DNA of 64,000 bases. It comes from Branchiostoma floridae. Taxonomy: Eukaryota; Chordata; Leptocardii; Amphioxiformes; Branchiostomatidae. The first letter of the stretch is position 1. The number at the start of each line of letters is the position of its first letter. The stretch spans positions 5,342,365 to 5,406,364 of the forward strand of contig NC_049990.1 of assembly GCF_000003815.2 (NCBI RefSeq), given 5' to 3'. Of the stretch, positions 27,201 through 58,800 are shown piece after piece. The notes beneath the pieces were generated by a model that was not told the DNA's origin, searched no databases, and saw nothing but the letters and a program-made list of their open reading frames with translations. Position numbers and translations under genes: made by a program.

Positions 27201-30200
27201 AGATCTATTGAACCTTTGAATTGACTGTAGTAATAATATTTGCTGTGTGGATAGGTGCAGGGAATACAAAGGTCAAGGTCAACTTTGCCTGCTCATGTGT
27301 GGTGTCTGTTTGTGTTTCTGATATTTGTGGTCTGAGCATAACTTTTGAACCTCTGAATGGATTGTAATAATATTTTCTGTGTGGAAAGATGTTGGGAAGA
27401 CGAAGGTCTAGGTCGACTTTGCCTGGCTCGTACGTGGTGTCTGTTTGTGTTTCTGAATATTTGTGGCTGGTTTGGACAAGTTTTCTAAATCTCACTTGTA
27501 CTATCAGGCAAACGCAATTTACTTGCCCAAGACAATTTTTCACTCGCCTAGAATTCAAATGTCACTTTATATGCATAGAATTGCAGCAATGGAATTCTTA
27601 TTATTGCCATGACTGTAAAAAGTAACAAGTACAAATGTGTGTTATCAAAATGTCACTCAATGGAAAAAAAATTACTTGCCCGATCAGGCAAGTGGGTTAG
27701 GTCATGCACTTGCCTGATCAGCGCTTTCACTTGCAGTGGACAATAGGACTGGAGGACTTCTCCAACCCTGTTTCTGGTCAGAATAACTTTTGATCCTCTG
27801 GATTGATTGTAATAATATTTGCTGTGTGGGTAGGTGTTTGGAAGACGAAGGTCAAGGTCAACTTTGCCCTCTCGTGTGAGGTGTCTGTTTGTGTTTCTGG
27901 ATATTCTGGGTCAAGACAACTTTTGAAACTCTGAATGGACTGTAATAATAGTTGCTACATGTGGGTAGGTGTAGGGGTGGGTACCGGTAAAGAAAATTCA
28001 GGTCCAGGTATGGTCCAGAAGATCTGGTCCAGACCTGAACTTGGGCCTGATTGTAAAAACTTGTGAATGCTGGGCGATACACAAAACAATGGTCCGGTAA
28101 GCCACAAAACTTACAAACTCCTGCTGGTAAAATCTGTTCATTTTCGAATCAGTCCAAGATCCGGTCCACTGATGTTTTTCAGGTCCGGTTTTTCTGGACC
28201 AGTCCAACTAGAAAAAAACGGCTTTGACCATGTTCTTGTTTGCTTTTGTTCAGGCTGGGTGGAAGGAGAACCATGTGGCGTTCATGAATGAGCTGAAGAA
28301 CCTGCAGGCCACAGGTATGACCACCATGGGACAGGCTCTCAAACAGGCCTTCGACCTGCTCAACCTCAACAGGCTTGTGTCAGGCATCGACAACTATGGA
28401 CAGGTCAGTACTGAACATCACATTCTTGCTGAACACCACTTTTTCAGACTACAGATAAGTAAATCCTGAATCAATGATGATTTTGTGATAATCTTGTAGT
28501 TGAAACATAGGCAACTTGCAAAGAAATTGTTTTTAGATACAAGTAATATGTAATTCTGTGTATGAAGATGAATTTATCACTAAAAAAAGACATATTTAAT
28601 TTACATACATGTGTGTGCTTGATCAAACTTGTTCAAGTACAGGTACAGGTCTGGAACTGTACCTAAACCCATGTACCTATACCTAAAATTTGCTTAGGTA
28701 CACACATGGCGCTAGCTTCTAAGATAGATACATGTACATTTTGATGACAGCTAGATTTGAAAATTTCTGTCCGTGTACTTCTGTAGAATTTCAGAAACCA
28801 TGAAGATGGTTAAGAAGTTGCATCCTACTTTCAGAAACTGATCTTAATTTTTGATCTGTATTTTTATAGGGAAGAAACAAAGTTTAAAAAATTCCTAATT
28901 TATTTTTGTAGAATTGCAGAAATCATTGATATTGTTATAAAGTTGATTTTTATTTCAGAATATGATTTGATACCATGATTTGTTGTGCATTTGTACAGGG
29001 AAGGAACCCGTTTTTCCTGGAGCCAGCCATGGTTGTGACGATCACAGATGGCAGTAAGCTAACCAGCAGCAGTGGGGTACAGGAGGAGGTGAGGTTACAG
29101 AAGACATTTTTTGTAATGTAAAATAACACGAGAACTGTGGAGCAAGACCTTGCTGAGATGGGATGCACATGGGAGGGTGCAACAATCAGCATCAGACAGA
29201 AAAGTGTGGAGAACAATGATGGCCCACCTCAGCGAAGACTGATATGCAGCGAGGATGACGAGGATGAAAATAACCTGTTGATTTACCTGTCATACAGGGT
29301 ATCAGTATGATACCATGACATATTTCAGGCTCAAGTTCAAAATAAAGTCTACCAATGCACCATTACTGTACCTTAAGTTAAAGAAAAAGTCAAATACTAG
29401 TAGATGCAGCAGCTTTGCTTATAATTTTGTGTCTAAAATGTGCACAAATCTTCTAGCACAAAGACAAGAATTTATTTATATAGCACTGGAAAAAGATTGG
29501 AATCATTGAGTGCACTGGGACTGAACTTTTCTTGTGAAAGTAGGCCAGGGACTATAGAATTTGAATCTATTAACTGACATCTTCTCCCCCTACCAGTTGA
29601 CCCTACCGATGAACTCCCAACTGCCGGGCGGGGAGCTAACCAAAGAACCATTCTCTGGTAGTTCCTTGCCCAGGACTGTAGAATTCAGTATTACAGTAGT
29701 GATCTGTGTTGTGACTATTTCTAAAAACAAAAGGCTCTGGTCGTTCATTGTCCAAGACTATAAAATTCAAACCTGTTAACTGACATCTTCTCTCCTCTAC
29801 CAGTTAACCCTACCGATGAAGTCCCAGTTGCCTGGCGGCGAGCTGACCAAAGAACCATTCTGGTGGGACCAGAGAATTCAAACCTATTAACTGACATCTT
29901 CTACCTTCTACCAGTTAACCCTACCAATGAACTCCCAGTTGCCTGGTGGGGAGCTGACCAAAGAACCATTCTTTGGTAGTTACTTGCCCAAGACTGTAGG
30001 ATTCAAACCTGTTAACTGACATCTTCTCTCCTCTAGTTAACCCTACCAATGAACTCCCAGTAGTGATCTGTGCATCTAGGTTATATCCAAACACAAATGG
30101 CTCCTGTAGTAAGTTTATTGCCCAAAACTGTAGAATTCTGACATATTCTCTATTCTCTCCTCTGCCAGTTAACCCTACCAATGAACTCCCAACTGCCGGG

Positions 30201-33200
30201 CGGCGAGCTGACCAAAGAACCATTCCGATGGGACCAGCGGCTGTTCTCGCTGGTGCTGCGAATCCCGGGGGTGGCCTGCCGCGTACAAGAGCCACCTCAG
30301 GGCGTCATTCCAATGGACGAATCACCGATCTCAGTTCTGTGTGAGGTCACAGGAGGTGAGTGAAGAGAGCAGTGACTGACACTTGTCATAGGGTTTTAAC
30401 TTGCCGTGAAGGCTTCTTGAAGTACCCACAATTGCCAGTCACAAATTGTCATTCCAAATCCACTGGACGAGTCCCCGATCTCTGTTCTGTGTGAGGTCAC
30501 GGGAGGTAAGTAGAGAGATCAACAACTCGCAGTCATTCGAAGGTTTTAACTTGCTTTAAAGGCCTCCGAAAGGCGTTAAGTGCAGGAGCCACTGCAAGGT
30601 GTCATTCCAATGGACGAGTCGCCAATCTCCGTTCTGTGTGAGGTCACAGGAGGTGAGTGGATCGAGAGATCAACAGTTCGCACTTATCCAAAGGTTCTAA
30701 CTTGCTTTAAAGGCCTCAGAAAGGTGTTAAGTACAGGAGCCACTGCAAGGTGTCATTCCAATGGACGAGTCGCCAATTTCTGTTCTGTGTGAGGTCACGG
30801 GAGGTAAGTAGAGAGATCAACAACTCGCACTCATCCAAAGGTTTGAACTTGCTTTGAAGGCCTCCAAGAGGCATTAAATGCAGGAGCCGCCGCAAGGTGT
30901 CATTCCAATGGACAAGTCCCCAATCTCTGTTCTGTGCGAGGTCACCGGAGGTGAGTAGAGAGAACTCGTACTCATCCAAAGGTTTTAACTTGCTTTGAAG
31001 GCCTCCGAAAGGCGTTAAGTACAGGAGTCGTGGCAAGGTGTCATTCCAATGGACGAGTCACCAATGTCTGTTTCCATATAGATGAAGCTTGACTACACAA
31101 CTTAGATCTTAGAGATTCAACTGAGCCCCTTCCAATTTTCTTTGTACTCTAAAATTACTGGAATTCCATTAATCTAAAATCTTATCTCATGCTTTTGAAG
31201 TGTTCTCCAAAAGTGCTGATATAAATTGTGTCCAACGTCATATGTCAAGCACCTGATTCCCTGTGCAGTTGTTAATTGCAGTAAGGTTGTGAGTCTGTGC
31301 ATATGTGGGCGTTCTACTCTCGTTAGTATAGTTATAGTCCTTGAAGATACTCTTTGAAGTAAATACCGACAGTAATCAATGAGATAAGATCAGTCTTCCT
31401 TGGGGCCTGATTAGAAAGGACAGTGTTTTTTGGATGTTTTTGTTTATTGTTGCCTTTTGATTAAACGTAGTTGGGAAAAATGTTGGTCCTACACTGTACA
31501 TTGAGTTGACTGTATCACTAATTTTTACCTGAAATATTTGCCCAAAGGGAACACATTTTAAAAGAAGAAGTATTTTAGCTGCAAAATGTTTAATTTGATT
31601 TACCAGAGACTGTAATGTCAACCCTTGCATGACGGGGAACAACAGACGATAAACTGGATAGTGAGTGTGTGTGAGCGTTTATTCTGCTAGGTCATGTTCC
31701 TGAAAACCCCACCACATTTATAAAAAGGAAAGCATTGCAGATCTGCTATCACAGCATAGGTAATCCAAAGATATGCACACTTCAAATATCCAGGTTTTCA
31801 AGACATTCTTGAAAAGGTTTTAAAAATGCCTTTTTGTGAATGTGGCGGTGTGCAGTTACCCTACAGAATTATACACGTAAGAGTTGAAGTTAGCAGCAAC
31901 AAAGTCTACCCAGCAACAAGCTGAGATAGGAACAAAAATATCTGTGTTCATGTGAGCTTCTCTGTCTCTTGTGGTGAATGAATGGTCGTCTTCTTTTCAC
32001 TTCAGCATGGAAAGGATCACATTCAACACATCTAGTTTCTATGCGATGTTGCTGGGTTTTCTTTCCATACTGCATGTTTTTGTCACAGTTCCAGTTCTAT
32101 ACTGGTTTCCAGCAGGGGCTAGGGCCATGATTACCGTATATTCTCGAATAAAGTACGCACTTTTTTAACTTTTCAAAATTGAAAAGGTGCTACAAGTTGT
32201 TGCCAAAGTTGGGGTGCGTACTTTATTTGAGGTCACTGCACAGAGAAATGGTAAAAAAAGCCTAAAATAAAGCAAGGTGGAGCTACACTTCTAGTAATTT
32301 TTTCAAAACATGCACATTGTTGTTATCTTGTAGTTGTCTAAACATGAAACAAAGAAATTGTCTAAACATGATTTACATAAGATTGGCATTTGCATACAAT
32401 CCTTTTGAGTCAGTGACTTTGACTTGTACAACTGGATTTTCCTGATTTCTTCTACACAGTGATTTTTATAATTGCAGTAGGCAATTCTCCAGGTTATCTT
32501 ATGCAAAATAACCATGGGAAAACATCATAAATTTGAATATATCCAGTTAAAGGTCTGTTCAAAATTGGTGGAGAAGGGGTGCGTACTTTATTTGAGTTTT
32601 TCCATTTTACCTTTCAGTCCCAAAGACCTGTCTAAGACTTGTCCAAAATCAGGGGTGCGTACTTTAATTGGGGTGCGTACTTTATTCGAGAATATACGGT
32701 AAATCTAATGAGAGAATCCTGCGTCACTTGAAAGACGTGAACACAAAGGATGTGAAGTCTTCAACCATGCTGATTGCTTCTCGAGACACGTGCCGTATTT
32801 TTGCTTACGTCAGTTTTTATGGCTGTCATCTCAAGGAGTTTTTGTTATTGTCGTGTGCTTGGCTAAAAATGGGAGCCGTAGCGAAGCTGCATTTCACTGC
32901 CACAAAGTACTTGAAAAAGAAAAATGCTTCACCTGACTTGAGGATCCGATGACTGCTTTGCCTTCTGTAGGCATTCAGAATAAAAAGTCTCAGACCAATA
33001 CCTGTTTTTTCAAAGGTGGAGTAAGAATTTTTTTTAAATGTAGTTCAGCTGAATTTCCAGTAGCAGAAGAGACATAGAAGCTGAGTTATAATGGAAGAAG
33101 ATCATTATTATTCAAGCTGAATACTTGTGTATATGTATATATATCAGATAAAACTGGGTAGTATAGGAAACAAGTTGTATACCAGTCCTGTAGCACATTC

Positions 33201-36200: not shown

Positions 36201-39200
36201 ATCTCCGCCGTTCCTGGACCGAATGACCTGAAATTTGGCACAGGGGTAGAATGGGCCAATACCTTGATGCTTTTTTCTCAGTTTTTTCATATCTGCCTCT
36301 AAAATGATTTTATTGAGATTTTTTGGTCAATTTTAGACCAAAACTGTATATTTTGGCCCCTGTACCCTGGTATTACAACCAAATGAGCTGAAATTTGACA
36401 GAGATGTGCCTTGATAATGCTCCCATATAAATTCGATAACACTTTTGGTGTACAGTACAACAAAATGCTTATTTTTGCGATTTTTTGACCAATTTTTGAC
36501 CAAAAAAGGACACTTTTGGCCCCTGTACCCTGGTATTACAACCAAATGAGCTGAAATTTGACAGAGATGTGCCTTGATAATGCTCCCATATAAATTCAAT
36601 AACACTTTTGGTGTACAGTACAACAAAATGCTTATTTTTGCGATTTTTTGACCAATTTTTGACCAAAAAAGGACACTTTTGGCTCCTGTACCTTGGTATT
36701 GCAACCGAATGAGCTGAAATTTGACACAGATGTGCCTTGATAATCCCTTCATATAAATTCAATAACACTTTTGGTGTACAGTGCAACAAAATGCTTATTT
36801 TTGCGATTTTTGGCCAATTTTTGACCAAAAAAGGACACTTTTGGCTCCTGTACCCTGGTATTACAATTAAATGAGCTGAAATTTGGTGTAGATAGGCATT
36901 AGATACTTGGTAACAAGATTCAAGTAAAATTTTTGACATAAACAACTATAAAATGATTAATTTTGGCACTTTTCTGAGGGGAAATTTGTTTTCTTTTGGC
37001 CTCCTGACGTGACCTTCCGTGACCCCGCACAGAGCCACACCTGTGCGCGTCAGCCGGAGAGTTAATTGAATCAAAGACCTAGCCAATCAGCGAAGAGGAG
37101 GCCAAAGGCTAATTAATATTCATAAGCGGGGCCTCATGATCCCGTATATAGCAGTGTTCCCGCCAGGGGGAGCGAAGCCCGCCTAAGGCTCTCGCATTTT
37201 AGACTATTCAGAAGGCTTTATATTGTATCAGTTCTTAGGGGCATATCTATGATAATCGCAGCAGTCACTTAACTTCTCTTCAGGAGTTTAGCGTAACACT
37301 ATTTCAGGTCAAACCGTCAAAGGCAACTAAAAACAAACTTTAACGTTACTGAGTTCAACAGTACTTATAACTTGTTATCCGAAGTTGAAACGCTAGCGAT
37401 GGTATTTTCGCTGCGCTGTTAGCTCCGTGCGACTGTTGTTGACGGTCTTATAACGGTATATTTTGCACCCCTGTACCCTGGTATGAGTAACATTTGGTAT
37501 AGATAGGCATAAGATAGTTGGTAAAATGATCCAAGTAAAATTTTTGGCATAAAGTACTGTAAAAGGCTTAATTACAGCCCTTTTTTAGGGGAAATTGGTT
37601 TTTTTTCGTTCTCCATGCCATGACCATTCGGACGTTCACCCCACAGAGCCGACATCTGCACCTGCGTCTAGCCGGCAGGAAGAGTTAATTCAATTAATGG
37701 TTCAGCCAATCAGCGAAGAGGAAAGCGAAGGCTAATTGATATTCATAAGTGGGACCACACAATACGTTAACTTGAAGACTCAGGCCGTACAGACTTCTCG
37801 CCAGGATTTTTTCAAAGCGTCGGACAGGGGTCCGGGGGCCGCCGAATGTCCCTGGCGGGGTCCAGGGGCAGGGCCACTGTGGGGGGGACCCAGGTGGGCG
37901 AAGCCCCCCGGAAGCTCTTGCATTTTAGACTATTGAAAAGGCTTCTTTTGTCAGTTTTTTTAGGGCCATATCTACGATAATCGTAGCAGTCACTTACTTC
38001 TCTTCAGCAGTTTGACTTTAGAATATTTCGGGTCAAAGCTTCAAAGACAACAAAAACCTCATAAACAACAAACTTTACTTAGCTCAACAGTATACAAAAA
38101 TATTGTACGGGTTGCCATCCTTAGTTGAAGCGCTTATTTATAGCGCTAGTATCTTCGCTGCGCCGTTAGCCACCGTGCGACTTTTGTTGACGGTCTGATA
38201 TCCCTACGTCGCCGCCTCGCTGATATTCCCACGGACATGTTTCAAGAAAAATACCCAGCAAAAAACGCTGTTCTGCGTCAAATTCTATTCTATAAAACAT
38301 GTGGGACTCAGTGTTACAGTCTAAATATTTTGTAGAAGCACCGCTGTAGGAAAGAAGGTCCAAGCAATGTAAAACATCACGTAGCATGAAGTTCGCTGTC
38401 AACTGGCACACAGCACATGACTGTTTGAAACTCTAAGTCTAATCAACAGCCGTGTTTGATTGATAGCGGCGGTCCTTTGATGAAGTCGGCGAAAGGTGCG
38501 TTAGTTAGAAAATCTGCGTTTACTTTTGATACGTAATAATAAGTTAGACAGTGGCGAGAATGATTATTTTCTCATCAATATTTCTCTTCAGAATTATTTG
38601 AACTTAATTGTACATCTAAACAATTGGCTTACCTGTGCAATGTTTATATGATTAATGATCAGTGTACTGAAATCATGTGTAACGTATGGCTCCTAGTCAA
38701 TAGATCAGCATTTTTCTCTATAGTGACCACCTGTCTATAGTGGCCACATTTCTATCACTGGACTGGAACTTGCGAAAACTGCTGTATTTTCTCCAGAGCA
38801 AATGTATGTGTTCCTAGTGCTGTTGTTGTTTGACATAAACTTTGAACATTTAAATTGTAAGTAACTTTAAACTGCCAGAGTTTCAGCCCAATAAAACACT
38901 CTCAGCGCCAGGGTATGAACAGACTGACCAGACACACGAAAATAAATCCTCGAACAAGGTTCAATCGTATCTTCCGGGTCTGGCAGGACTGAGTTGTTAA
39001 ACTAAAATAAGAATAGGCTCAATGGCTAATTGCATACAAAGTAAAACAGTTTAACAGTTTTACAGCTTGAAGAAAACAAACGCTCCTACAGTACCTGCAC
39101 CTGCTTGATAATTATTAAATCGTATGCCCTACTTGAATAAAAAAAGTTTACTGTAATAATAAATGTACCCACATCACAAGGAGCTTATACTTTTTTAAAC

Positions 39201-45200: not shown

Positions 45201-48200
45201 TTCATCACTGGAGTTGACTTCCTTATCCAGACTGCCTATTTAAAGTTTGATCCACCGGATATGCCTGTTGTCTTCCCTGTCAGTTACCTTGGCCCCTTCC
45301 CAGTCAATGATGCAGTTATTCTGATAGGCATCAAAACGTCAGCAGGTAATATACTACTATTAACTGGTTGTGTAAAAGAAAAGTCTACCATCCAATGACC
45401 TATCAACCTAATGAAATTATTTTTGGAGGCAAAATTTCACATTGTGCTATGCAAAATTTCATAGTGCATTCTGCGACATTTCGCATTTTGTTACACAAAA
45501 CTTTCGCAGTGCGTTCTCTGAAATTTCACAGTGTCTTCTCTGAAATTTTGCAGGACATTTCGCAAAACTTGATGAGTATTTTGCAGCCTTCACTGTATAA
45601 CCATTTTGTTCCACCAGGTCCACCCCAGCATCGCCCGCCCTCCGTACAGATTTCAAGCAGGTTCTCCAGTCCATCACGGAGAGTTTACATCACCTGATTC
45701 TGCTTGGATAACAGCAGATATAACCGTTTTATTCCCTTTCCCATCAGAGAATTCACCCCAGCATCGCCCGCTCTCCGTACAGACTTCCAGCAGGTTCTCC
45801 AGTCCATCACAGGAGAGTCCCCGCTCCCGGCCCCCATCCGAACCGACTCCACCGAACGCAAAATTAAATCCCCTCGAACTTTTACAGTAACCTGTTCCCT
45901 TACCTCTCAGATCCACCCCAGCATCCCCCGCCCTCCGTACAGACTTCCAGCAGGTTCTCCAGTCCATCACGGGAGAGTCCCCGCTCCCGGCCCCCATCCG
46001 AACCGACTCCACGGAGTTTCCCGGCTTCTCCATCACGGGAGAGTTTTAACTTTACAGCATGCGATTCTGCTTGGATGGCAGCAGATGTAACCTTTTCCCT
46101 CCCCTTACTTCCAGCAGGTACTTCAGTTCATCACAGGAGAGTTTACAGCAACTGATTCTCCTTGGATGGCAGCAGATTTACTTTTAAATTAGTGTAAATG
46201 CAGAAATGTTCACGTACGGTTTTGGCATTGCCAATTCGCCGCAAACTTAAAACCTCTACAAATATTTTTCCATGACAGTCTATGACTACATGAGATGGTG
46301 CTACCGGGAACACTCCATTGTCCTGACACTACGAACTTAAATGCATTTACAGTAACCGTTTTTGTACTGTCTCTCGTCAGGTCCACCCCCGCATCCCCAG
46401 CTCTCCGTACAGACTTCCAGCAGGTTCTCCAGTCCATCACGGGAGAGTCCCCGCTCCCGGCGCCAATCCGTACCGACTCCACCGAGTTTCCCGGCTTCTC
46501 CATCGCGGTGGCGGACTGGGAGCTTCGGGCGCAGAGCTACCGGAACCCGTTCGACATCCCGCGGGGCGGACTGCTGGACCAGGTACAGAGGATGAGGAGG
46601 AACCTCATGCAGACGTCACCCTCGCACATCAAGTTTGTCGATGAAGGTGAGAAAGGAAATTTTGCAGAAGTATTTAAAGGTTTGATTTCTACACAACTTA
46701 GTATGCTATATGACCAATCTTTCGACATGCAGACGTCACCCTCGCACATCAAGTTTGTCGATGAAGGTGAGAAAATTATATAATTTATTCCCCTAAAACT
46801 GTTTATTTTTGTAGAACTATAGCAGTGTGGGAAATGTAAAGTTTGTTGGTGAAGGTGAGAAAAAATAGAACAGTGCCTTAGTATAGAACACATAGAGTTT
46901 GTGGATGAAGGTGAGAGTGTACATGCTGGACCAGGTACTGAGGATGAGGAGGAACATCATGCAGACCTCGCCCTCGCACATCAAGTTTGTCGATGAAGGT
47001 GGGAAAACAACAGTTTTTTTTTCTCAAAATAATCCTTTTCTAGAACAATCATCATTTGTTTGTTTGTTTTATTTGGATCTCCATTAGGGATAATGTTATA
47101 TTCGTTCCCTTATTCCTTCTTTGTGGAGTTGGTACAATACAGGTGCAATCAAATAAAAATTTAATGTAAGAAACTTTGTCACTTGTGAAAAATATAAAGT
47201 TTGTCCATAAAGGTAATTAAAATAGTTAATTCTAAAACTGTTATGTTATGGAACACATCAAGTTTGTCAATGAAGGTGAAAGCTTTGATAATTAAGAAAC
47301 ATTAAAGTCCTTCCCACACCATATGATAACGTATTATACAGACCAAAAATGTCTGTCATGTCTAAGAAAAAGTCATGGTCCCATAGTTTTTTGAGGACGT
47401 AGGCATTGTGTATTGTTAATCCAATGTGTCTAGGGTATAACATTGGAGGGCAGAGCCCATCCTTCTCCCTCCACTGCCTTTTGCCACGTCAGGTATCTGT
47501 TTACACCAGGTTGGTGTGAGGGACTTGTGTTAAGTGCCTTTCACAAGGATATAATGTCCAGCCAGGAATGCCATGATTCGAACCAGTAACCTCTCAATCC
47601 CATGTCTGCTAGCCTAATCACTCAGCCAGGAATGCCACAAAACCAAGAGCTAACACTTTTTCCTATGTTTTACTCCAGACCAACTCCACAGCATTCCTGT
47701 TCAGCAGATGGGGAACTACCAGGAGTACCTGAAGAAACAGCCACAGCCGCTCCGGGAGGTGGAACCTCAGCCGGTCAGACTGCACACCTTCGGCAACCCA
47801 TTCAAACTGTCCAAGGACATGGTGAGGGATATTGTCTCAGCTACATCAGATCTATGTCTACATAGAGATTACCCCCCAAATAACCCCACAAGGGGCAACA
47901 TAGGGGAGGGAGTTGAGTTATTTAAGGTGGTGGATCCCCGGGTGCTGGGTATGCCCCTGTGTGGGTTTGAGTAGACTCTGGGGAGTATCATATACCAGCC
48001 TGTCAGGCTGCACACCTTCGGCAACCCATTCAAACTGTCCAAGGACATGTTGAGGGAGATAATCTCTGTTTATATCATACAGGGCCGTGATAACATCTGT
48101 ATAGGTGTTAAAGACCAGGTGATAACTTGTTGTACTGTGATCACAGGCTTCCATTGCAAAATCATGACACGTCAAAGATCTGTTTCTATATAGCTCAAGT

Positions 48201-56091: not shown

Positions 56092-56943
56092 TCATACATC
56101 CAGTCCGCTGGTGATGGTGAGATAAAACACCGTGGTCAAAGCCACACCAGTGGTGAACAGCACACCGTGCGACAGCGCCCTCTGTTGGCCGTTGGACCTA
56201 TTGCAGAGGTTTCCCACGCAGCAGTAAGTGCACTTTCGGGGCGGCCGATCGCAGTCGTGGTTGAGGGACTGACCCTTTTGGCAACGGACGGTGTTTGAGC
56301 AACCCTGCATAAAACACATATAATACAGAGAATTTAAAACATATACTAGTATAACATGATGATACAAGTTTAAACTTTATCACCGTACATAAAAATAAAG
56401 CGCTTACCAACAAACTTTCGATCAGTCCTCTGATCCTTTTCAAGTTGTAATGACCCAATATATTACATGGTGTACTTAACTTAAAAACAACTGTCCATTT
56501 ACTACTCGATGGGTATCGGTTAGGAAATTTGTGAATACGACCTAACGTGTACGTGTCATACTCATAGGACGGTTTGTACTATCCAAGCAGAGGTTAAGTT
56601 CCGTCTTGTTCTGAACGTCTTTTAGGCGTCTTATGTTTTTTTCCGGGCTTTCGTTATTGTCGGGTTTTCGGTGAACAACAAGGAACAATGACAAAATAGA
56701 AATCCCATTCTAAACATCTAAAATATGTCAAACTAGCTTCTGAGTGGAGACAAAGCGAGATTAGTCTGATAGATACTCTTTACAGAGTTACCTTGGTGAT
56801 TTTCTTGCCTGTGTGCAGGTACCTCTCCACTTGCGTGTAGCAGGCGTTCTCGTCCTGCCCCGTGCAGTTCTCGGGTGCCATCCTGTTACAGGCCGCATGG
56901 CTGATCTGTTGTAGACAGGCGTAACACTGCAGCCCGTACGCGC
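56092..56943 (-). CDS. Ly6/uPAR (LU) domain protein, last two coding exons, probable GPI anchor
   Basis: Small cysteine-rich cell-surface protein of the Ly6/CD59/uPAR superfamily (three-finger fold). Minus-strand exons: 56943-56792 (phase 1 in, phase 0 out) and 56304-56092. The mature N-terminus is [14 protein letters not shown], the usual LxCYxC start. Twelve cysteines are visible, ending in the family signature CTYCC(5)LCN. After CNRSNGQQ comes a hydrophobic tail (HGVLFTTGVALTTVFYLTI) that fits a GPI-attachment signal. The exon with the start codon and signal peptide is not identified. It should lie upstream, beyond 57 kb or outside the window. Intron-interrupted LU domains are normal in this family. 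The ligand is unknown. A partial copy of the first exon lies at 57384-57453. A LINE fragment is inserted 38 bases upstream of its acceptor. Confidence 0.85.
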
Positions 56944-56980
56944 CTGGGGGAACACATATGATACGGTTATCACTACGTGA

Positions 56981-57332
56981 TGAGGTGCCTAAGAAGAACA
57001 GTAGGGAAGACCAGAAGGGATAAGATCAGGAATGAGGTGTTAAGGGGAATGGTTGCATGGTGCCACCAACATCAACCACTACATCGCCCGACAACAAATA
57101 AAGTGGTTCGGGCACCTCGTCAGGATGTCACCCAATCAACCGGCCCTGAGAGCCTACAACACCAGACTCTGTCAGGACGGCGGGCCAGAGGTCGACCACG
57201 ACGCCGTTGGATCGACGGAGTGAAAGAGACCCGGGCTGAACACCCATGGACTGACACACCAACAAGCCACACGTCTTCTCCTCCTCCCCGCGACACCCCC
57301 GGCGGTATAAGCGGACGGATATAGATAGATAG
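56981..57332 (+). mobile_element. 5'-truncated non-LTR retrotransposon fragment with 12-base target duplication
   Basis: The C-terminal end of a LINE reverse transcriptase is readable across a frameshift: RRTVGKTRRDKIRNEVLR in one frame, IARQQIKWFGHLVRM in a second, and [14 protein letters not shown] back in the first. ATCACTACGTGA flanks the fragment at 56969-56980 and 57333-57344. The 3' end is a short ATAG repeat. The WFGHLVRM and GRPRRRWID motifs are typical of L2/CR1/RTE-type elements. A dead insertion. Confidence 0.85.
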
Positions 57333-57383
57333 ATCACTACGTGAATGAATGAATGAATGAATAGATAGATGGATGGATAGATG

Positions 57384-57453
57384 GGTGTCATTTTGTTACA
57401 GCCCGCATGGCTGATCTGCTGTAGACAGGCGTAACACTGCAGCCCGTACGCGC
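57384..57453 (-). pseudogene. partial copy of the LU-domain exon with its acceptor
   Basis: Encodes [20 protein letters not shown] and a few more residues, then changes into GGAT-type repeat after CAYCC-like decay. The acceptor and about 30 bases of adjoining intron (to about 57480) match the real exon at 56943 almost exactly. It carries only the acceptor half. Confidence 0.85.
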
Positions 57454-57479
57454 CTGGGGGAACACATATGATACGGTTA

Positions 57480-57775: not shown

Positions 57776-58800
57776 GTAACGGCAATCTGACTATGAAAAT
57801 AATGCTCGTGTAGAAGTATCATCCATACATATGGTTGTCATGTGTATTGTCACATTGGAATTGCCTGTGAAGGCAACCAACCCGTCTAGGACATGGATAA
57901 ATGACTTTGATTTAGGCATAACCCCTCGGATAAAGGCGAGATCACAGACCCCTACGCGCCATGCAGCACTACCTACAAGCCTTGATATTCATCAACATGA
58001 ATGTGGGCTTGTACTGCAAGAAGAAGAAGAGGGCGTATTCAGAAGCGGTTGCCACAAGTTCCAGACAGCAAGCCATATTCCCGGTAGTAACCTCTGCTTG
58101 GAGAATAAACTAGGATGGCAATCCGACTATGAAAATGATGCTCGTGTAGAAGTATCATCCATACATATGGCTGACATGTGCATAGTCACATTTGAATTTC
58201 CTAGCTATGAAGGGATTCCGGGACGGCAGCCGCAAGTTTCAGACAGCAAGTCATGTCCCCGGTAGTAACCTCTGCTTGGAGAATAAACTAGGATGGCAAC
58301 CCGACTATGAAAATAATGCTCGTGTAGAAGTATCATCCATACATATGGCTGACATGTGTATAGTCACATTTGAGTTGCCTATAGCTAGCTATGAAGGGAT
58401 TCAGGGGCGGCAGCCGCAAGTTTCAGACAGCAAGTCATGTCCCCGGTAGTAACCTCTGCTTGGAGAATAAACTAGGATGGCAACCCGACTATGAAAATAA
58501 TGCTCGTGTAGAAGTATCATCCATACATATGGCTGACATGTGTATAGTCACATTTGAATTGCGTAGCTATGAAGGGATTCAGGGACGGCAGCCGCAAGTT
58601 TCAGACAGCAAGCCATGTCCCTGATAGTAACCTCTGCTTCGAGGATAAGCTAGGATGGCACCCTGACTATGACGGGTCGTGTAGTATCATCTATACATAT
58701 GGCTAGCAAGTGTATAGTCACATTCCTCATTTGAGTTGCCTATGAAGGCAGCCGCCAGTTCCAAACAGCAAGTCATATCCCAGACACTCGCCAAGGTGAC
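57776..58800. repeat. tandem array, about 180-base unit, about 4.5 units plus one outlier
   Basis: GACTATGAAAATAATGCTCG, CATACATATGGCTGACATGT and AGCCGCAAGTTTCAGACAGC recur with spacing close to 180 (units near 58080, 58260, 58444 and 58623). A diverged copy near 57776 is separated by unrelated sequence. Short open frames cross units but shift at each border, so it is not a repeat-protein gene. Confidence 0.85.

Follow-up and report, generated by a model that had tools for sequence, protein, structure and literature searches.

Intronic copies of exon ends in the INTS6 gene of Branchiostoma floridae and the synonymous-biased divergence of lancelet mirages

Exon 5 of a gene in the genome of the lancelet Branchiostoma floridae is preceded by a stack of its own acceptor-side halves and followed by a stack of its donor-side halves, which raises the question of how such an arrangement comes about and whether the intronic halves are inert debris. 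The window analysed is a stretch of 64,000 nucleotides (contig NC_049990.1, positions 5,342,365 to 5,406,364), and the host gene of the arrays encodes Integrator subunit 6 (INTS6; match to PDB 7cun_F, E = 1e-37). Both exon 5 arrays belong to the lancelet 'mirages', a class of minisatellite-like tandem repeats in which each unit straddles the boundary between an exon and an intron. Mirages have reportedly been on record since at least the 2002 paper on Adh3. Their occurrence in lancelets has already been described (PMC3087553, PMC3902484), with published units of 150-160 bp in BflGb6 and 157 bp in BflGb9 lying across a 5' or 3' junction; their mechanism is termed unclear, and they are suggested to be raw material for intron gain (PMC3087553). 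Also characteristic of the class are concerted evolution within a cluster, its edge units excepted, copy number varying somatically or from haplotype to haplotype, and mRNA that is still spliced regularly. The repeat type itself is thus known, and what appears to be new here is the synonymous-biased divergence of its copies. We did not find this pattern in print: in the text of PMC3087553, which the search covered, the words 'synonymous' and 'silent' have no match.

Anatomy of the INTS6 arrays and of related mirages

Self-comparison of the region confirmed the first-pass annotation in that exon 5 is the only full exon, with four acceptor-side copies before it and five donor-side copies, four of them with donors, after it; the copy coordinates of that annotation held overall, with some positions off by a few bases (Table 1). 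The exon-part starts on the acceptor side (29597, 29804, 29915 and 30037) are spaced by 207, 111, 122 and 132, and the last exon bases on the donor side (30505, 30652, 30803 and 30950) by 150, 147, 151 and 147, the two arrays having TRF scores of 362 and 914. These different unit spacings bear out the proposal of two separate local amplifications, each across one splice junction. Likewise, exon 5 positions 70-114 are present in none of the nine copies, so that there is no extra complete exon and whole-exon duplication was rightly set aside. Each of the four upstream copies has an AG preceded by a pyrimidine tract (14-15 pyrimidines in 17 positions, as at the real acceptor), and the donors of D1-D4 each match eight of nine consensus positions, as does the real exon 5 donor. 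The statement that upstream copies keep acceptors and most downstream copies keep donors therefore stands; its complement, that the former never have donors and the latter have no acceptors, is not absolute, since a GT occurs near the distal break in U1-U3 and a CAG at the proximal break in D2-D5. A DNA search of the whole genome with exon 5 recovered at least eight matches, all of them here (the exon, U1-U3 and D1-D4); U4 and D5 were absent from these, the match counts are lower bounds, and no paralogous INTS6 locus that might be the source of the copies was among the matches listed.

The polarity of the copies had been presented as surprising in itself, a view that finds no support: acceptor halves lie upstream and donor halves downstream because the tandem duplications span the acceptor and the donor, respectively, and the class is already published in lancelets. 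After a duplication across the acceptor the real exon would form the final unit, with the acceptor halves displaced upstream, and after one across the donor it would form the first, with the donor halves displaced downstream; as the extra units would remain intronic, the mRNA need not change.

Table 1. Exon 5 of INTS6, its partial copies and the further INTS6 mirages in the window
Feature	Position	Strand	Remarks
INTS6 exon 5, sole complete copy	30169..30355	+	187 nt = 62 codons + 1 nt
U1, acceptor-side copy, first 57 nt of exon 5	29597..29653	+	4 synonymous, 0 nonsynonymous versus exon
U2, acceptor-side copy, first 69 nt of exon 5	29804..29872	+	4 synonymous, 1 nonsynonymous within first 57 nt
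U3, acceptor-side copy, first 57 nt of exon 5	29915..29971	+	5 synonymous, 0 nonsynonymous
U4, short acceptor-side copy, first 24 nt of exon 5	30037..30060	+	hits TAG; 1 synonymous, 0 nonsynonymous
D1, donor-side copy, last 47 nt of exon 5	30459..30505	+	rearranged 5' part; donor GTAAGT
D2, donor-side copy, last 73 nt of exon 5	30580..30652	+	donor GTGAGT
D3, donor-side copy, last 73 nt of exon 5	30731..30803	+	donor GTAAGT
D4, donor-side copy, last 70 nt of exon 5	30881..30950	+	donor GTGAGT
D5, outermost donor-side copy of exon 5, truncated	31022..31072	+	without donor; more nonsynonymous changes than D1-D4
Second INTS6 mirage (exon B), three acceptor-side copies	45619..46037	+	copies from 45619, 45752, 45912
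Exon B donor-side copies, downstream of exon end near 46646	46727..47000	+	46727, 46836, 46892, 46926
Third INTS6 mirage, one donor-side copy	47999..48049	+	copies exon end 47771-47821; donor GT changed to TT

The same gene contains two further mirages. The exon B codons that match the acceptor-side copies begin at 46382, and an additional 36-nt fragment is present at 46107-46142. The single copy of the third mirage shows two synonymous and no nonsynonymous changes in 51 nt. Elsewhere in the window a Ly6-like exon forms a mirage (56873-57479) with one changed codon synonymous and three nonsynonymous, as judged by eye. A search of the B. floridae genome for globins yielded nine loci, two of which were recognised as matching published mirages: L037, whose 158-bp acceptor-side units comprise the exon and three copies, two of the units being identical, and L033, with one donor-side copy of 157 bp. 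By side and unit length, and for L037 also by its three units, these are recognisable as BflGb6-like and BflGb9-like, a likeness of anatomy rather than identity to the named records. The GFP family, tried as a lancelet marker, was uninformative, with no match either in this genome or in 14 control genomes.

An automatic survey of 264 kb delineated 65 local repeat clusters, 59 of them testable and six not. Six of the 59 reached p <= 0.015 (about 0.9 false positives being expected at this threshold, with a smallest attainable p of 0.005), and three of these are INTS6 arrays. Significance was not reached by three clusters with mirage anatomy: 46572-47007 (p 0.45), the Ly6-like exon cluster (p 0.59) and 47768-48066 (p 0.17). 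As to other low-p clusters, those at -94107 to -85090 and 130874 to 132576 resemble ordinary coding repeats or duplicated genes, and that at +79453 to +79872, beyond the window on the minus strand (p = 0.015), contains GGTTTCGAACC, which we take to be tRNA B-box-like, and is not claimed as a mirage.

Synonymous bias and depth of divergence

In the exon parts of six arrays (four from INTS6 and two from globins) 55 of 74 derived alleles are synonymous and 19 nonsynonymous, against a neutral expectation of 23-29% for the synonymous share (combined Fisher P ~2e-14). The exon-part boundaries for this count were set by hand, in contrast to the automatic survey; the exon B donor array was trimmed to exon codons and the exon B acceptor array stripped of its last codon (the C3 break) before counting, and the count omits the third INTS6 donor copy and the Ly6-like copy. 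Within this count the exon B donor array alone, at 5:5, is not significant (P = 0.056). With the real exon excluded, the copies of five arrays still give 35 synonymous alleles out of 50 and 15 nonsynonymous (P 1.3e-8). Because the divergence is mostly synonymous where only 23-29% is expected, most copies are not old neutral relics. Omega between exon and copy is 0-0.07 for U1-U4 and D1-D4, 0-0.06 for C1-C3, 0-0.05 for L037 and 0.05 for L033. Certain pairs look decayed (dN/dS 1.44 for D4-D5 and 0.67 for X3-X4), and the outermost copies follow no single rule, D5 appearing decayed while U1 and G1 do not. Selection on the units at the RNA or DNA level was rejected as the source of the bias, which follows codon position and is not evident in the intron parts; the latter vary without clear periodicity, though the numbers are small. 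Recent homogenisation of the copies by the exon was rejected for the exon 5 arrays, in which 4-10 positions in synonymous codons separate each of U1-U3 and D1-D5 from the exon, against one in the short U4.

Silent divergence is comparable in magnitude to intron divergence and somewhat higher: dS is 0.44-1.49 and intron p-distance 0.38-0.44 between exon 5 and D1-D4, and the corresponding values among D1-D4 are 0.20-0.44 and 0.10-0.19. Nucleotide diversity (pi) at synonymous sites in B. floridae is given as 0.0397 (PMC12862219). Exon-copy dS amounts to about 4-20 times pi for most copies and 11-37 times for D1-D4, and is zero for X1; with dS so far above a pi of 0.04 the copies are not a plain sample of present alleles. 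By the four-gamete test, seven of 36 site pairs are incompatible in the U array, none of 55 in the D array and one of 28 in the exon B acceptor array.

Proposed exchange with the working exon end and competing explanations

Taken together, the synonymous-biased divergence (also in the copies alone), the comparable silent and intron divergence, the incompatible site pairs of one array and simulation lead us to rate at slightly better than even the chance that mirage arrays arise by junction-spanning duplication combined with ongoing exchange with the working exon end. Under this model the population is very polymorphic, and unequal crossing-over or conversion between homologues would let units trade places with that end; a unit lineage would repeatedly take the role of true exon end and so pass through selection on the protein, and each copy would be a recently retired exon end. 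In two of 12 simulated settings, with fast, randomly paired exchange and strong selection, omega was 0.12-0.13, which is in the right direction, and dS/pi_flank was about k (4.6 for k = 4.4, 8.0 for k = 8.0). The remaining ten settings gave omega of 0.27-0.82, above the values of most exon-copy pairs. Of these, the first simulation assumed 180 selected sites per unit and yielded 0.66-0.82 whichever of the four exchange rates was used; this may mean that such copies are too loaded to regain the exon position, and it counts against exchange for long units. The eight later settings used 45 selected sites. The observed dS is also deeper than the ~k x pi of the exchange model, the arrays holding 2-6 units; to account for this excess, other haplotypes would have to carry longer arrays or the local mutation rate would have to be elevated.

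The foremost alternative is that the mirages are passive, old slippage or repair duplications of junctions having been followed by one-way neutral drift of the intronic copies. The anatomy by itself fits this, as do the decayed-looking pairs and the Ly6-like copy with three of its four changed codons nonsynonymous. However, with at least half of the exon-copy path neutral, omega should be ~0.5 or more, and simulations with slow exchange or long units gave 0.55-0.82, far from the low values of U1-U4, D1-D4, C1-C3, L037 and L033; the synonymous excess, both pooled and in the copies alone, also opposes it. Passive origin is thus already disfavoured for most arrays and appears unlikely on the whole, and the earlier suggestion that the copies only record repair slippage is, in its passive form, contradicted by the coding-type divergence of most of them.

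Considerably less probable is that the copies are translated, exon ends being swapped at the RNA level as in-frame alternative half-exons. On the donor side a cryptic donor after 30282 (CGC/GTACAA) within exon 5 would be joined to the CAG of D2-D4, replacing the last 22 codons by a near-identical version lacking two residues. Such usage would account for deep silent divergence under strong protein constraint, and from the coordinates the joint is in frame, with the CAG present in D2-D5. Nevertheless, no pyrimidine tract directly precedes the CAG of D2-D4, the U copies offer no strong donor, U4 meets a stop immediately, and the L033 copy has no acceptor evident by eye; furthermore, published RT-PCR reportedly points to regular splicing in the case of globin mirages (PMC3087553). 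Slightly more doubtful still are old tandem duplicates of the whole exon that were formerly mutually exclusive and whose other halves have since disappeared: they would yield long coding constraint and deep dS, but the stretch missing from every exon 5 copy, the regular unit lengths on the donor side and the recurrence of the polarity at a second INTS6 exon speak against them.

The likelihood is lower again for splice decoys selected to tune exon 5 inclusion. The decoy sites match the consensus as closely as the real sites, and an in-frame stop follows in all eight computed choices of a single decoy (U1-U4 spliced through to the real donor, or D1-D4 used with the real acceptor); as all eight hit a stop, they give no sign of selection as decoys. 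Moreover, a bias at codon position 3 in exon parts is not what selection for splice sites or RNA elements would produce, and the intron parts vary as noted above. Least credible is an assembly artefact of collapsed or concatenated haplotypes, for which the high heterozygosity of lancelets, the differing PGBD5 array copy number of two published versions (PMC3902484) and a BflGb6 version termed aberrantly assembled (PMC3087553) may be cited, but which is opposed by five to six distinct units per side, more than two haplotypes could supply, by dS between copies far above pi, and by confirmation of the PGBD5 sequence on re-examined reads (PMC3902484).

Implications and comparison with known systems

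These observations suggest that lancelet introns may hold spare exon ends under protein-level selection, acting via recombination into the exon or, much less probably, via in-frame splicing of the copies. If exchange is the correct explanation, mirage copies would record exon turnover; silent polymorphism at mirage-flanked exon ends should be several-fold above that of flanking sequence (~2.6-6x in the fast-exchange simulations), and exon ends should share silent variants with intronic copies of other individuals. Were exchange with the exon to hold the copies to coding quality, they would stay usable as exon, making the route to intron gain more plausible.

Tandem duplication of mutually exclusive exons likewise places duplicated coding sequence and splice sites close together within a gene; unlike such duplicates, none of the INTS6 copies is a whole exon. 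Intron gain by the Rogers model, as in the potato RdRp case (PMC4974935), resembles the INTS6 situation in that a tandem duplication copies splice signals together with coding sequence, but differs in that no new intron has formed here, the copies sitting within existing introns. The closest parallel is with the amphioxus mirages of Adh3, BflGb6, BflGb9, TnC and PGBD5, which likewise consist of tandem junction-spanning units (10-160 bp in the cited cases) with the AG or GT duplicated and affect both 5' and 3' junctions; in contrast to these cases, in INTS6 both ends of one exon are hit, and this in two exons of one gene.

Junction-spanning arrays at INTS6 exons

INTS6 lies on the plus strand, and its exons 4 and 5 match human Integrator subunit 6 (PDB 7cun_F, E = 1e-37). 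The first-pass annotation had described partial copies of exon 5 as forming two arrays, acceptor side upstream and donor side downstream, and this description stands; the polarity to which it had given special weight, however, is that expected from junction-spanning duplication. Duplication across an acceptor would place the intron end and exon start twice in succession with only the last joining the rest of the exon, and hence the surplus, acceptor included, would sit upstream. Duplication across a donor would leave the surplus downstream with its donor, and in either case the surplus exon-end copies would then be intronic. Each upstream unit joins a pyrimidine tract and acceptor to the opening 24-69 nt of exon 5 (spacings 207, 111, 122 and 132 nt). 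Downstream units hold the exon's last 47-73 nt, a donor and ~80 nt of intron; they are spaced 147-151 nt apart, and the array ends in a fifth copy that is truncated (D5). Exon positions 70-114 are absent from every copy. GTAC occurs twice near the start of the donor-side unit, at 30283-30286 within exon 5 and at 30422-30425 within the intron, which suggests a microhomology-mediated first duplication. A search of 513,431,437 bases of genome with exon 5 recovered, among the matches listed, only the exon itself and at least seven of its copies, this count being a lower bound. All eight single-decoy choices computed for exon 5 meet an in-frame stop, implying that splice-site choice must be strong or errors discarded.

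Exon B, with matching codons from 46382, corresponds to Integrator subunit 6 residues 489-578 (E = 2e-13) and is one of several further exons with such copies (see table).

Exons with junction-spanning copies in the window and among the globin loci of the same genome
Feature	Position	Strand	Description
Window	C12:5342365-5406364
INTS6 exon 5	30169-30355	+	flanked by two arrays
Second INTS6 mirage	45619-47000		partial copies on both sides of exon B, polarity as at exon 5
Third INTS6 mirage	47771-48049		one donor-side copy of exon ending at 47821; donor GT changed to TT
Ly6-like exon	within 56783-57025	minus	single acceptor-side copy, on the upstream side of the exon as the gene reads; region 56783-57479
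Globin locus L037			acceptor-side units of 158 bp; three plus exon, two identical
Globin locus L033			donor-side copy of 157 bp

Coding-type divergence of the copies

Variable columns at codon positions 1, 2 and 3 number 1, 0 and 8 in the upstream exon 5 array and 4, 1 and 12 in the downstream one; the intron parts display no clear periodicity in their small numbers (phase counts 2,3,4; 5,12,11; 3,3,1). Over six arrays (four INTS6, two globin) the derived alleles are 55 synonymous and 19 nonsynonymous. Neutrality predicts a synonymous share of 23-29% per array, as calculated on the exon sequences with transitions given a weight of 2. The per-array P values are 3e-4, 6e-5, 1e-4, 0.056, 2e-4 and 3e-4 (combined 2e-14), and leaving out the real exon gives 35:15 in five arrays (combined P 1.3e-8). 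At exon B the synonymous:nonsynonymous ratio is 10:2 in acceptor copies (mostly synonymous) and 5:5 in donor copies (mixed); the Ly6-like copy, counted by eye, has one synonymous and three nonsynonymous codons, opposite to most INTS6 and globin arrays. These data represent one haplotype of one species with few sites per array, and exon-part edges were placed by hand except in an automatic scan.

That scan, over 264 kb (3,710 N), returned 65 local repeat clusters, 59 of them testable and six with p <= 0.015: three INTS6 arrays, two ordinary coding repeats and one of unclear nature. Three anatomical mirages, each with one testable block, were not significant in it (46572-47007, p 0.45; 47768-48066, p 0.17; 56873-57479, p 0.59). 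Two other tandem arrays, at 36301-38200 (period ~163) and 57781-58784 (period ~178), lack any such signature of coding-type change (p 0.85 and 0.42). Downstream of the window and on the minus strand, at 79453-79872 from the window start, there are diverged copies that contain a short open frame (GDSRPIYLTDDGVCL) and adjoin a motif that we take to resemble a tRNA B-box.

Proposed exchange with the working exon end

Exon-to-copy dS is 0.20-0.47 for the upstream copies of exon 5 and 0.44-1.49, near saturation, for donor-side copies D1-D4; it is 0.24-0.39 for acceptor copies of exon B, 0-0.15 for its donor-side copies X1-X2, and 0.18-0.77 and 0.60 in the globin arrays. Silent divergence is somewhat above intron divergence, though of the same order. 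Exon-copy omega (dN/dS) is 0-0.07 for the upstream copies, D1-D4, the exon B acceptor copies and the globins, 0.06 for D5, 0.14 for X3, 0.24 for X2 and undefined for X1; copy-copy omega reaches 1.44 (D4-D5). With one-way flow from exon to copy at least half of the exon-copy path would be unconstrained, so that an omega of ~0.5 or more would be expected. For constraint to show between copies as well, their lineages need to have served as the working exon end. Homologues that exchange unequally would allow this, array expansion turning an exon end into a copy and contraction making a copy the exon end.

Twelve settings were simulated forward in haploid populations of 100-150, with selection on the end unit only. 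Omega was 0.55-0.82 in seven settings where exchange was slow or units were long, and 0.27-0.37 in three where neighbouring units exchanged fast. It fell to 0.12-0.13 in the two that combined fast random pairing with strong selection, and there silent divergence was about k times flanking diversity, k being the units per array. With pi of 0.0397 for B. floridae (PMC12862219), the model predicts silent divergence of ~0.1-0.25 for 2-6 units, against observed values mostly of 0.2-0.7 and higher still for D2-D4. The modelled exchange fits the data in direction but not fully in depth. The gap would close if arrays in the population run longer or if mutation is locally raised; translation of the copies, a candidate reading, would have the same effect. 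Signs of shuffling are concentrated in the upstream exon 5 array (7/36 incompatible site pairs, versus 0/55 downstream and 1/28 at exon B).

Relation to known lancelet mirages

A globin search of the same genome recovered nine loci, two of which, L037 and L033, match published mirages, i.e. lancelet minisatellite-like tandem duplications with a unit spanning an exon-intron junction; these matches identify the class of the INTS6 arrays and also support B. floridae as the species. At the settings used no local repeats were found in four of the nine (L030, L031, L034 and L035), and other repeats are present in L029, L032 and L036. In L033 a run of N (~1922-2021), which could be an assembly gap, lies directly 3' of the single donor-side copy. 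In L036 (~1728-1947) the donor region of an exon end (GGTAAGTCC.TTCAT.TGG) seems by eye to recur ~100 nt downstream, perhaps as a repeat on the donor side that includes very little of the exon, just a few bases. Local direct repeats lie near two other globin exons (L029, 102-307/1170-1376; L032, 1076-1390).

In the accessible parts of the literature on mirages, lancelet tandem duplications, exon-edge repeats, intron gain and polymorphism we found no report of two-sided arrays on a single exon or of coding-type divergence of copies; the terms synonymous and silent have no matches in the text of PMC3087553. The exon 5 structure is a further example of the already known mirage class, and the new element beyond the known anatomy of mirages is the coding-type divergence of the copies.
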